NCBI RefSeq assembly: GCF_018991925.1
Contig: NW_024751680.1
Location: 307,501-371,500 of the forward strand
Origin: Homarus americanus
Taxonomy: Eukaryota > Arthropoda > Malacostraca > Decapoda > Nephropidae
DNA: 64,000 bases
Reading direction: 5' to 3'
Part shown: piece by piece, positions 43,203 to 54,614 of the stretch
How positions within the stretch are numbered: the stretch's first letter is position 1
Layout of the letters: each line of letters starts with the position of its first letter
Notes under the pieces: generated by a model
The model's database searches: none
The model's input: the letters and a program-made list of their open reading frames with translations, nothing else
Told to the model about the DNA's origin: nothing
Translations under genes and position numbers: made by a program

Positions 43203-46168
43203 GAGGTGGTTAGGTTAGGTTAGACTGTCTGTAACTCACTCCATGACTGGTTAGGTTAGGTTAGTTAGGTTAGACTGTCTGTAACTCACCCATGACTGGT
43301 TAGGTTAGGTTAGGTTAGGTTAGACTGTCTGTAACTCACCCATGACTGGTTAGGTTAAGTTAGGGTTAGGTTAGACTGTCTGTAACTCACCCATGACTGG
43401 TTAGGTTAAGTTGGGTTGGGTTAGACTGTCTGTAACTCACCCATGACTGGTTGGGTTGTAGGTTAGGTTAGACTGTCTGTAACTCACTCCATGACTGGTT
43501 AGGTTAGTTAGGTTAGGTTAGACTGTCTGTAACTCACTCCATGACTGGTTAGGTTAGGTTAGACTGTCTGTAACTCACTCCATGACTGGTTAGGTTAGTT
43601 AGACTGTCTGTAACTCACTCCATGACTGGTTAGGTTGTTAGGTTGGGTTTGACTGTCTGTAACTCACTCCATGACTGGTTAGGTTGGGTTAGGTTAGGTT
43701 AGACTGTCTGTAACTCACTCCATGACTGGTTAGGTTAAGTTAGGTTAGGTTAGACTGTCTGTAACTCACCCATGACTGGTTAGGTTTAGTTAGGTTAGGT
43801 TAGACTGTCTGTAACTCACCCATGACTGGTTAGGTTAAGTTAGGTTGGGTTAGACTGTCTGTAACTCACCCATGACTGGTTAGGTTAAGTTAGGTATAGA
43901 CTGTCTGTAACTCACTCATGACTGGTTAGGTTAAGTTAGGTTAGGTTAGACTGTCTGTAACTCACCCATGACTGGTAGGTTAGGTTAGACTGTCTGTAAC
44001 TCACCCATGACTGGTTAGGTTAAGTTAGGTTAGGTTAGACTGTCTGTAACTCACTCCATGACTGGTTAGGTTATTAGTTGGGTTAGACTGTCTGTAACTC
44101 ACCCATGACTGGTTAGGTTATTAGGTTAGGTTAGACTGTCTGTAACTCACCCATGACTGGTTAGGTTAGGTTAGGTTAGACTGTCTGTAACTCACCCATG
44201 ACTGGTTAGGTTAAGTTGTTAGGTTAGACTGTCTGTAACTCAACTCCATGACTGGTTAGGTTAAGTTAGGTTAGGTTAGACTGTCTGTAACTCACCCATG
44301 ACTGGTTATTAGGTTAAGAGTTAGGTTAGACTGTCTGTAACTCACTCCATGACTGGTTAGTTAAGTTAGGTTAGGTTAACTATCTGTAACTCACTCCATG
44401 ACTGGTTAGGTTAAGTTAGGTTAGGTTAGACTGTCTGTAACTCACTCCATGACTGGTTAGGTTAAGTAGGTTAGTTAGACTGTCTGTAACTCACCCATGA
44501 CTGGTTAGGTTGGTTAGGTTAGGTTGACTGTCTGTAACTCACTCCATGACTGGTTAGGTAATAGGGTTGAGACTGTCTGTAACTCACCCATGACTGTTAG
44601 GTTAAGTTAGGTTGTTAGACTGTCTGTAACTCACTCATGACTGGTTAGGTTAGGGTTAGGTTAGACTGTCTGTAACTCACTCCATGACTGGTTAAGTTAG
44701 GTTAGACTGTTGTAACTCACCCATGACTGTTAGGTTGTTAGGTTATAGGACTGTCTGTAACTCCCATGACTGGTTAGGTTGGGTTAGGTTGTTAGACTGT
44801 CTGTAACTCACTCCATGACTGGTTAGTTGGTTAGGTTGAGACTGTCTGTAATCACCCATGACTGGTTAGGTTAAGTTAGGTTAGGTTAGACTGTCTGTAA
44901 CTCACTCCATGACTGTTAGGTTAAGTTATTGGGTTAGACTGTCTGTAACTCACCCATGACTGTTAGGTTAAGAGTTAGGACTGTCTGTAACTCACTCCAT
45001 GACTGGTTAGGTTAGGTTAGACTGTTGTAACTCACTCCATGACTGGTTAGGTTAGGTTAGGTTAGACTGTCTGTAACTCACTCCATGACTGGTTAGGTTA
45101 AGTTAGGTTAGGTTAGACTGTCTGTAACTCACTCCATGACTGGTTAGGTTAAGTTAGGTTGGGTTAGACTATCTGTAACTCACTCCATGACTGGTTAGGT
45201 TAAGTTAGGTTAGGTTAGACTATCTGTAACTCACTCCATGACTGGTTAGGTTAAGTTAGGTTAGGTTAGACTGTCTGTAACTCACTCCATGACTGGTTAG
45301 GTTAAGTTAGGTTAGGTTAGACTATCTGTAACTCACTCCATGACTGGTTGGAGTTAAGTTGGGATTAGGTTGGAGCTGTGTAACTCACTCCCATGACTGG
45401 TTGGGTTAGGATTAGGTTAGGTTAGACTGTCTGTAACTCACTCCATGACTGGTTAGGTTAAGTTAGGTTAGGTTAGACTGTCTGTAACTCACTCCATGAC
45501 TGGTTAGGTTAAGTTAGGTTAGGTTAGACTGTCTGTAACTCCTCCATGACTGGTTAGGTTGGGTTAGACTGTCTGTAACTCACTCCATGACTGGTTAGGT
45601 TAAGTTAGGTTGGGTTAGACTGTCTGTAACTCACTCCATGACTGGTTAGGTTAGGTTAGGTTAGGTTTGACTGTCTGTAACTCACTCCATGACTGGTTAG
45701 GTTAAGTTAGGTTAGGTTAGACTGTCTGTAACTCACTCCATGACTGGTTAGGTTAAGTTAGACTGTCTGTAACTCACTCCATGACTGGTTAGGTTAGGTT
45801 AGGTTAGGTTAGACTGTCTGTAACTCACTCCATGACTGGTTAGGTTAAGTTAGGTTGGGTTAGACTGTCTGTAACTCACTCCATGACTGGTTAGGTTAGG
45901 TTAGGTTAGGTTTGACTGTCTGTAACTCACTCCATGACTGGTTAGGTTAAGTTAGGTTAGGTTAGACTGTCTGTAACTCACTCCATGACTGGTTAGGTTA
46001 AGTTAGACTGTCTGTAACTCACTCCATGACTGGTTAGGTTAGGTTAGGTTAGGTTTGACTGTCTGTAACTCACTCCATGACTGGTTAGGTTAAGTTAGAC
46101 TGTCTGTAACTCACTCCATGACTGGTTAGGTTAAGTTAGACTATCTGTAACTCACTCCATGACTGGTT
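43203..46168. repeat. 3-kb satellite combining TTAGG words with a 29-bp block, about 60 copies
   Basis: Each ~45-55 bp unit has two to five GGTTA/GGTTAAGTTA words followed by AGACTGTCTGTAACTCAC, then (T)CCATGACTGG. The telomere-like part varies in length; the AGACTGTC block is well conserved. CACCCATG and CACTCCATG variants mix in the first half, while from about 44,960 only CACTCCATG remains. The last 800 bases are more homogeneous and show a longer super-repeat. Confidence 0.98.
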
Positions 46169-48169: not shown

Positions 48170-48321
48170 TACACCCGTAAACAAAAGAAGTATTTGACTT
48201 ATATAAACTTCATAGTAATTGGTCTTAAAAATATATATATATTTATTTTCTTTGGCTTTTGTTAGCTTGTGTGGTCAGTCAGGTCTCTGTTGTATAGTGT
48301 GGACAAGAGGGGGAACACGTA

Positions 48322-48838
48322 CAGTCAGCCAAAGATGCACCGACCCCCACCCTAGGTCTCGTGCTCGCAATTTTACCTGGCAATACTTGGTAAAGGAAGG
48401 CTGTATGTAAAGGTGATTGTGATTGGTGGATCTGTTTTTGGCTGTATCACTGTTAGGATAATTATTAAACAAACCAAAGGTAGAATTTGTATAATAATAA
48501 ACTATTCATTGTTATTTAAAGTCGTGAGAAGTTTCCAAATGTTCTTATATATGCTTAAATAATGAAGAAAATTATATTAATGAATTGGCAACTCAACTAC
48601 AACCACAGCTGCCACAATCTCACATCAAAAGTTTCCTCATTATTTAAACAAATATACGAACATTTGGAAACTTCTCACGACTTTAAATAACAATGAATAG
48701 TTTATTATTATACAAATTCTACCTTTGGATTGCTTAATAATTATCCTGACGTGTGCAACCAGCGATCCGCAATCTCTCCTTTACCAATGACTACTGGAAA
48801 TGCGTGAGCACAGAGGTCGGTGCATCTTTGGCTGACTG
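48322..48838. mobile_element. 517-bp hairpin (foldback) MITE, Tc1/mariner type
   Basis: Perfect 24-bp terminal inverted repeats at 48,322-48,345 and 48,815-48,838, beginning CAGTCAGCCAAAGATGCACC. Each end is flanked by TA (48,320-48,321 and 48,839-48,840), the target duplication of Tc1/mariner elements, and the CAGT start is common in that superfamily. A second, longer inverted repeat lies inside: about 48,455-48,570 pairs with 48,632-48,747 over ~115 bases with about six mismatches, leaving a ~61-base loop. The segments between outer and inner arms are diverged. There is no open frame for a transposase, so it is non-autonomous. Confidence 0.87.
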
Positions 48839-48919
48839 TACATGGACACCAGATCGTCTAAAAGTACCACGGCCAGTTACTGAGATAAAAATGTAAACAA
48901 TGAGATGAGGAGAAGGAGT

Positions 48920-49745
48920 TTTGGCCCTACTAGTACACGGGAGTTAATGATGTTGGTAGCCCTGTTGGTAGTATGGGCCCTACTAGTACACGGGAGTTGA
49001 TGATGTTGGTAGCCCTGTTGGTAGTTTGGATCCTACTAGTACACGGGAGTTGATGATGTTGGTAGCCCTGTTGGTAGTTTGGACCCCTACTAGTACACGG
49101 GAGTTGATGATGTTGGTAGCCCTGTTGGTAGTATGGGCCCCTACTAGTACACGGGAGTTGATGATGTTGGTAGCCCTGTTGGTAGTTTGGACCCCTACTA
49201 GTACACGGGAGTTGATGATGTTGGTAGCCCTGTTGGTAGTATGGGCCCTACTAGTACACGGGAGTTGATGATGATGGTAGCCCTGTTGGTAGTATGGACC
49301 CTACTAGTACACGGGAGTTGATGATGTTGGTAGCCCTGTTGGTAGTATGGACCCTACTAGTACACGGGAGTTGATGATGTTGGTAGCCCTGTTGGTAGTA
49401 TGGACCCTACTAGTACACGGGAGTTGATGATGTTGGTAGCCCTGTTGGTAGTATGGACCCTACTAGTACACGGAAGTTGATGATGTTGGTAGCCCTGTTG
49501 GTAGTATGGACCCTACTTTTGAGGTTGATGATGTTGGTAGCCCTGTTGGTAGTATGGACCCTACTAGTACACACGGGGAGTTGATGATGGTAACCCTGTT
49601 GGTAGTTTGACCCTACTAGTACACGGGAGTTGATGATGTTGGTAAGCCCTGTTGGTAGTTTGGACCCTACTAGTACACGGGAGTTGATGATGTTGAGTAG
49701 CCCTGTTGGTAGTTTGGACCCTACTAGTACACGGGGAGTTGATGA
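48920..49745. repeat. 52-53 bp satellite, about 16 copies
   Basis: CCCTACTAGTACACGGGAGT, TGATGATGTTGGTAGCC and CTGTTGGTAGTATGGAC joined in order. Some copies have CCCCTAC instead of CCCTAC (53 bp), shifting frame. Several copies near 49,490-49,640 carry small indels. Open frames (STRELMMLVALLVVW) are artefacts. Confidence 0.97.
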
Positions 49746-49856
49746 TGATGACGATAAAGGTGATGATGATAACGATGATGGGGTGATGACCGTAGTATTG
49801 TGTACAGTATATTCTTGTATGAACTTATTACCTGTTGACATCCATCTCTTCTTTAA

Positions 49857-53965: not shown

Positions 53966-54031
53966 GATGGAAGATACGAAGGTGGTAATTGTAATACGAA
54001 TTAACCTTTAGATTCGACTCGGTATGATATG

Positions 54032-54588
54032 AAGCTTCGTGAACCATTGTGGATGATAAGATTTGGGTTTGTTTACGTCTTATGAACAGTTAGTCGAGTG
54101 AACGAACCTCTCTCGACTCAAGTGTGTTCATGGTGAAGCTTCGTGAACCAGTATAGAGACCAAGATTGGGTTTGTTTACGTCTTATGAACAGTTAGTTGA
54201 GTGAACGAACCTCTCTCGACTCAAGTGTGTTCATGGTGAAGCTTCGTGAACCAGTATAGAGACCAAGATTGGGTTTGTTTACGTCTTATGAACAGTTAGT
54301 CGAGTGAACGAACCTCTCTCGACTCAAGTGTGTTCATGGTGAAGCTTCGTGAACCAGTATAGAGACCAAGATTGGGTTTGTTTACGTCTTATGAACAGTT
54401 AGTCGAGTGAACGAACCTCTCTCGACTCAAGTGTGTTCATGGTGAAGCTTCGTGAACCAGTATAGAGACCAAGATTGGGTTTGTTTACGTCTTATGAACA
54501 GTTAGTCGAGTGAACGAACCTCTCTCGACTCAAGTGTGTTCATGGTGAAGCTTCGTGAACCAGTATAGAGACCAAGATTGGGTTTGTT
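54032..54588. repeat. 103-bp satellite, five full copies plus an incomplete sixth
   Basis: AAGCTTCGTGAACC starts at 54,032, 54,136, 54,239, 54,342, 54,445 and 54,548, exactly 103 bases apart after the first. Copies two to five are almost identical; the first and last are diverged or truncated. Each unit contains AGTCGAG and CTCGACT, a perfect 7-bp stem with a 13-base loop. Confidence 0.98.
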
Positions 54589-54614
54589 TATTATGCAAGT
54601 TGTTTGAATGTGCT

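Follow-up and report, generated by a model that had tools for sequence, protein, structure and literature searches.

Bari elements are Tc1-like transposons with a TA target and with terminal inverted repeats (TIRs) of 28 nt (short) or about 250 nt (long), and, in the portion of their description drawn on here, the miniature inverted-repeat transposable elements (MITEs) related to them are thought to stem from internal deletion of a parent (PMC4877112). Galileo, from Drosophila buzzatii, is a foldback-like element with long, hairpin-forming TIRs; according to the available part of its account, the two TIRs of a GalileoN-1 or GalileoN-2 copy are >99% identical, whereas those of different copies diverge by about 7% (two copies), a rule that chimeric Galileo copies break (PMC2775673). 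For Tetris, a non-autonomous foldback element of Drosophila virilis, the corresponding excerpt reports repeats that cluster within two of three complete copies, with homogenisation suggested, as well as internal tandem repeats in the TIRs and 8–10-bp target duplications that its authors attribute to Mutator (PMC4079207). Here we describe a hairpin-forming sequence of 517 nt, located at positions 48322–48838 of a 64,000-nt stretch of the Homarus americanus genome (assembly GCF_018991925.1, contig NW_024751680.1, positions 307,501 to 371,500, forward strand; the whole stretch is called the window below). It is one damaged copy of a foldback MITE family of about 559 bp, and its apparently nested inverted repeats are portions of the same pair of long arms, which probably derive from the TIRs of a Tc1-like parent.

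The 24-mer at the left end of the element recurs exactly, in inverted orientation, at the right end (Table 1), and TA adjoins both; with the flanks included, the inverted match extends over 30 nt with 97% complementarity. These are the sole matches to the 24-mer in the window at up to three mismatches, with none in 100 shuffles, and no second copy of the element was found within the 64 kb. A search of the window's own assembly (2,206,306,877 bases in 34,269 contigs) for the 24-mer preceded by TA, with at most one mismatch, recovered 234 forward and 250 reverse occurrences, 484 altogether, whereas the reversed-pattern control gave 0 in either orientation. The window copy as a query yielded 107 matches when the best 40 of 1729 candidates were scored. 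All 40 places were fetched, both TIRs were recognised at the set limits in 34 (L015, L025, L030, L032, L035 and L039 being left out), and removal of duplicate loci (L003, L018, L023) before counting left 31 distinct copies. Nine others, found through two ends lying 470–600 bp apart, extend this set to 40, which leaves out shorter and longer copies and full copies recovered later, such as L083, L085 and L086.

Among the 40 distinct copies, TA borders the left end in 38, the right end in 34 and both ends in 32, as is typical of MITEs of the Tc1/mariner type; on the left, TGTA (20 copies) and GGTA (12) are the most frequent borders, on the right TACA (25), and the family border preference is (T/G)GTA..TAC(A/C). 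Copy length is 541–570 bp in 33 of the 34 copies with two TIRs, the window copy measuring 517 bp, and the flanks of the 34 are unrelated to one another save for duplicated loci, partial repeat matches and one 25-bp stretch that is discussed below. L017, L018 and L023 are such duplicated loci, and L002 and L003 share 3586 bp at 100% identity on two large contigs, representing either a recent duplication or unmerged haplotypes. Over its whole length, the 559-bp family consensus aligns with its own reverse complement at 93.4%, the element thus consisting of nearly nothing but long inverted arms, which is the structural hallmark of foldback elements; short, non-coding (the longest open stretch through the window copy is 76 aa) and present in many dispersed copies, it is also a MITE. 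A reading of this DNA from its letters alone (the sequence-only reading) had recognised the perfect 24-bp inverted ends flanked by TA and proposed a MITE, to be abandoned if no other copy or no TA-flanked boundary could be found; the genome search supplied both. Exact matches to the TIR were found neither in viral contigs nor in prokaryote genomes, and exact matches to the inner arm were absent from viral contigs. A literature search with 12 letters of the TIR returned a single match in open-licence text, an unrelated natural killer (NK)-cell paper; other literature searches gave no description of the family among the matches listed.

The arms match the TIRs, about 435 bp long, of a 3.1-kb Tc1-like element that carries transposase remnants, so that TIRs are common to the MITE and to parent-like, transposase-bearing copies. 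L090 and L100 are parts of one such copy (C1845:35586020-35589152, coordinates computed from the fetched pieces) of 3133 bp, with 439-bp TIRs that are 85.6% alike and 24-mers that show five differences on the left and none on the right. In L082, L093, L095 and L098, the left 430–437 bp recur in inverted form after the 3' side of a transposase; the other ends of L082, L095 and L098 lie outside the sequence seen, and that of L093 was not recognised. L069, of 2411 bp and with both ends perfect, contains HTH_Tnp_Tc3_2 (PF01498; E 8.7e-10, 39.2 bits, cut-off 31.5), and L089 contains HTH_23 (E 1.2e-11) and HTH_Tnp_Tc3_2 (E 1.4e-13) in separate pieces, both above their cut-offs; HTH_Tnp_Tc3_2 exceeds its cut-off in L090 as well (E 4.3e-12). 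These domains make up the paired helix-turn-helix transposase N-terminus that characterises the Tc1-like DD34E group. A second piece of L069 gave no transposase match, and its transposase piece matched no solved structure at E 0.01. By eye, open stretches at L089 1–516, L089 2663–3301 and L070 45–296 resemble pieces of retroelement integrase or reverse transcriptase; they lie beside or inside parent-like copies.

In alignment, the MITE consensus follows the left end of the parent to about position 318 and continues with an inverted copy of positions ~250–1, the two being joined at AATTT. The simplest origin of the hairpin, as read from these sequences, is that it was probably made by a deletion inside the parent, between its two long TIRs, which would have joined left TIR positions 1–~318 to right TIR positions ~250–1 at an AATTT microhomology. 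The loop is probably a part of the left TIR of the parent whose right-hand counterpart was deleted when the MITE was formed. The MITE would then have spread by cut-and-paste, with the transposase of the parent acting on the terminal TIRs. A parent with short TIRs and an inverted duplication of its left end, suggested by a first reading of L069 with a seeming 34-bp right TIR, was dropped in view of the long TIRs at both ends of L090/L100 and the long right ends of other copies. L070 (856 bp) has a different junction and a microsatellite in its loop, and further copies bearing the ends measure 213–401, 494–567 and 896 bp. The family is an ordinary MITE with an unusually complete trail, comprising a long-TIR Tc1-like parent, intermediate deletions and a hairpin that is nearly all stem; no host function is indicated.

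When compared with the consensus, the window copy is 95% identical over consensus positions 1–430, after which about 64 nt stand in place of the ~106 nt of the family, with the 24-bp end intact behind them. The inner hairpin consists of the part of one long arm that escaped damage and is not a separate nested repeat; it looks nested because those ~64 nt of the right arm are shortened and scrambled. Its measured dimensions (122 nt with 93% complementarity, 55 nt between the arms; in a gapped alignment with slightly wider limits, 117 matching positions and arms of 126 nt) are close to the 115 bp, ~95% and 61-base loop of the sequence-only reading, which had also regarded the sequence between the two inverted pairs as diverged and the inner hairpin as nested and separately conserved. 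The intervening stretches (102 and 60 nt as cut) are indeed diverged, yet they still align with each other when inverted, their global score being matched by 0 of 1000 shuffled pairs and their local score by 6 of 1000, which shows that they continue the same arm in damaged form and are not unrelated sequence. Separate conservation did not hold up across the family: in the 31 distinct copies the mismatch per 25-bp bin is 0.025–0.065 over arm positions 1–250, with no inner minimum, and the inner part is therefore not specially conserved; the last six arm positions, at the edge of the loop, reach a mismatch of 0.272. Nested insertion was rejected, since visual inspection showed no separate target duplication flanking the inner repeat and the family consensus has a single arm. 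As a general caution, an inverted repeat that looks 'nested' in a single copy may reflect damage to one of its arms.

Several features connect the window copy with L002. Its left arm clusters with that of L002 in the arm tree, its best genome matches are L002 and L003 (among the 40 scored of 1729), and it shares with these two loci an exact right flank of 25 bp, the left flank not being shared; the 25 bp occur in none of the remaining copies among the 34 full ones compared. A GTA immediately after the 25 bp, at 48864–48866, matches the GTA of the left border, at 48319–48321. On this sequence evidence, our guess is that the L002 locus may be the source of the window copy, which would have taken 25 bp of neighbouring DNA with it. 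The outer right arm would have been shortened and scrambled during or after copying from an L002-like element, or else mis-assembled.

The damaged tract is extreme within the family: its worst 40 columns contain 13 substitutions, more than in any other of the 80 arms (11 in the next, L028, and then 8). When the genome was searched with it (40 of 43 candidates scored), the window's own match was the only one among the matches listed to cover the tract, the other 40 beginning at query position 72–77, which is the TIR; a chimaera with another subfamily was rejected as the source, no other genome match being found at this sensitivity. The tract could be a real local scrambling or an assembly error. 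That it is a consensus error at the hairpin is a substantial possibility, although we lean towards real sequence: hairpins are hard to sequence, the tract aligns to the family in short, gap-rich pieces only, and no second match to it came up in the genome search, but the adjoining 24-bp TIR and the 25-bp flank are identical to those of L002, which indicates that the sequence right beside it is sound.

The likeness of the two arms within individual copies was explored through rare variants. The 31 distinct copies contain 77 variants that are present in exactly two arms (doubletons), and 42 of these pair both arms of one copy, whereas 5000 derangements, in which left arms were set against the right arms of other copies, gave 0.59 on average and never more than 6; for transversions alone, the proportion within one copy is 25/42. 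Four of eight doubleton indels likewise lie within one copy. In the arm tree the two arms of a copy are sister tips in 18 of the 31 copies, and the nearest neighbour by distance is the arm's own partner for 33 of 62 arms, with one more tied; in the rest of the 31, several left arms cluster with left arms. Extension to 40 copies gave a similar picture, with 40 of 91 doubletons within a copy (derangement mean 0.63, maximum 4) and sister-tip arms in 21 copies. L031, which has the most within-copy variants of the 31-copy set (six), has as its closest other copy a 93% match among the best 40 of 1716 candidates. An additional comparison included 55 arms from 41 loci, in which L045/L072, L046/L063 and L058/L097 are repeats and L090/L100 are one element. 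When the 40 within-copy doubletons were looked up in these extra arms, 18 turned up in at least one of them and the other 22 remained confined to a single copy, and shared ancestry therefore explains part of the homogenisation. Of the 120 doubletons in the enlarged set, 27 are within-copy, a rough figure in that a few places were fetched twice, which leaves the 22 of 40 unaffected.

Deletions provide a second line of evidence. L072 has mirror-image losses at about consensus positions 33–202 and 358–527, and L073 at about 36–63 and 497–524, with its centre also lost, although L073 might instead be a single deleted arm folded back anew; L061, L062, L066, L068, L074 and L083 have gaps in one arm only. 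Both L072 and L073 are tiny derivatives of 213–215 bp with perfect 24-bp ends. The shared rare variants suggest that the arms of single copies overwrite one another now and then, by gene conversion or by template switching in the hairpin. The stronger proposition is that within one inserted copy the two arms overwrite each other time and again, mirror-image deletions included, and that the copies have thereby divided into homogenised ones (the 18 of 31, or 21 of 40, with sister-tip arms) and others that retain an older left/right difference; we regard it as evenly poised between true and false. Gene conversion between arms had been put forward for the window copy in the sequence-only reading; the other copies lend it support, but it fails to explain the pattern of the window copy itself. 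If arm overwriting is real, the hairpin would act as a self-copying structure by which the two transposase-binding ends stay matched. The hundreds of ends in one genome allow a statistical test of arm conversion in short palindromes, for which the precedents of Galileo and Tetris rested, in the parts of their descriptions considered here, on three or four copies.

A competing explanation is that the sharing of rare variants within copies arises from assembly or polishing, or from unsampled symmetric subfamilies, and not from conversion. Reads can be mis-assigned between arms, only the best 40 of 1729 and the best 40 of 1716 candidates were scored, and 18 of the 40 within-copy doubletons were seen again in the extra arms. 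We nevertheless consider this explanation unlikely, in view of the within-copy excess that remains with transversions alone, the lack of a scored copy closer than 93% to L031, and the mirror-symmetric deletions of L072 and L073 (with the reservation made for the latter); moreover, a symmetric subfamily would itself need arm copying at some stage.

Taken as a whole, a damaged foldback-MITE copy, a Tc1-like origin by internal deletion and overwriting between arms form what we hold with high confidence to be the best explanation of the data. Several observations weigh against it. The only whole copy with long TIRs at both ends is L090/L100, with its five differences in the left 24-mer, and the pieces read showed no intact transposase: the DDE_3 match in L093 (E 0.0071) falls below the cut-off, and reading frames are broken. 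A search of the assembly for the empty site of the window copy, with the 25-bp flank assumed to have hitch-hiked, recovered only the site's own two halves. To these are added the recurrence of 18 of the 40 within-copy doubletons and the scrambled tract, which could be an assembly error.

Two other views of the hairpin fare much worse. Selection on the inner hairpin, for example as a small-RNA precursor, would account for its being better conserved than the outer arm, and the predicted fold is very stable (-259.8 kcal/mol for the 517-nt RNA against a mean of -104.8 in 100 shuffles, z -24), the inner arms of the window copy pair better than the outer ones, and L072 retains the ends and the central hairpin alone. 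We judge it highly improbable, as mismatch in the 31 copies has no inner minimum, the outer left arm is intact and follows the consensus, L073 loses the centre instead, and the Rfam scan of the window at the gathering score gave no match. A local inverted duplication containing a second inverted repeat, with no transposition, suggested by the single copy in the window and by two inverted pairs that look separate, is refuted almost beyond doubt by hundreds of dispersed end matches with TA borders and mostly unrelated flanks and by the continuous foldback of the family.

Table 1. Features of the element copy and its borders, in window coordinates
Feature	Position	Strand
Left TA border (putative target-site duplication), within a wider GTA target	48320..48321	.
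Left 24-bp TIR, perfect partner of the right one	48322..48345	+
Left arm, outer part; intact, follows the family consensus	48346..48451	+
Left arm, inner part (the earlier 'nested' repeat); portion of the same long TIR	48452..48573	+
Loop; equivalent to parent left-TIR positions ~256–313	48574..48628	.
Right arm, inner part	48629..48750	-
Damaged tract of the right arm; ~64 nt, scrambled (~106 nt in the family)	48751..48814	-
Right 24-bp TIR	48815..48838	-
Right TA border	48839..48840	.
25-bp right flank, shared exactly with L002/L003 on their right side	48839..48863	+

The surroundings of the element in the window are rich in microsatellites, TTAGG-like arrays and minisatellites, a setting that, together with the 2.2-Gb genome, would point to an arthropod; a tRNA scan of the window gave no match. 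A tandem array at 43209–46139 consists of ~61 copies of a 51-bp unit containing GTTAGG telomere-like repeats, a 53-bp minisatellite (48925–49747, 15.5 copies) starts 86 bp to the right of the element, and a tandem repeat at 54030–54590 has 5.4 copies of a 103-bp unit with 98% matches.

The family combines known traits, namely a Tc1-type parent, long TIRs, a foldback MITE and similarity within copies. Tc3 and Minos are Tc1-like elements with long terminal inverted repeats, and the likeness to them consists in long TIRs on an element of Tc1 type. With Bari, as far as the excerpted account goes, the lobster family shares a Tc1-like parent, a TA target and MITEs derived by internal deletion, whereas its TIR of ~435 bp and a MITE that keeps 250–318 bp per side and is almost all stem set it apart. 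Unlike the Bari direct repeats described there, the arm shows no convincing internal repeat of its terminal 34 bp: compared with the rest of the 437-bp arm, the terminal 34 bp, which is the sequence tested for internal repetition, gave an 8-nt partial match only. The arms are thus not internally repetitive by that measure, and the family is therefore foldback-shaped without being filed as a relative of FB or Galileo. Within the limits of the sources as drawn upon, it resembles Galileo in its long hairpin TIRs and, in the homogenised copies, in the likeness of the two arms of a copy, and differs from it in being Tc1-like with TA; it resembles Tetris in being a foldback with within-copy grouping of repeats, and differs in its TA target, in contrast to the 8–10-bp duplications and the internal tandem TIR repeats of Tetris.
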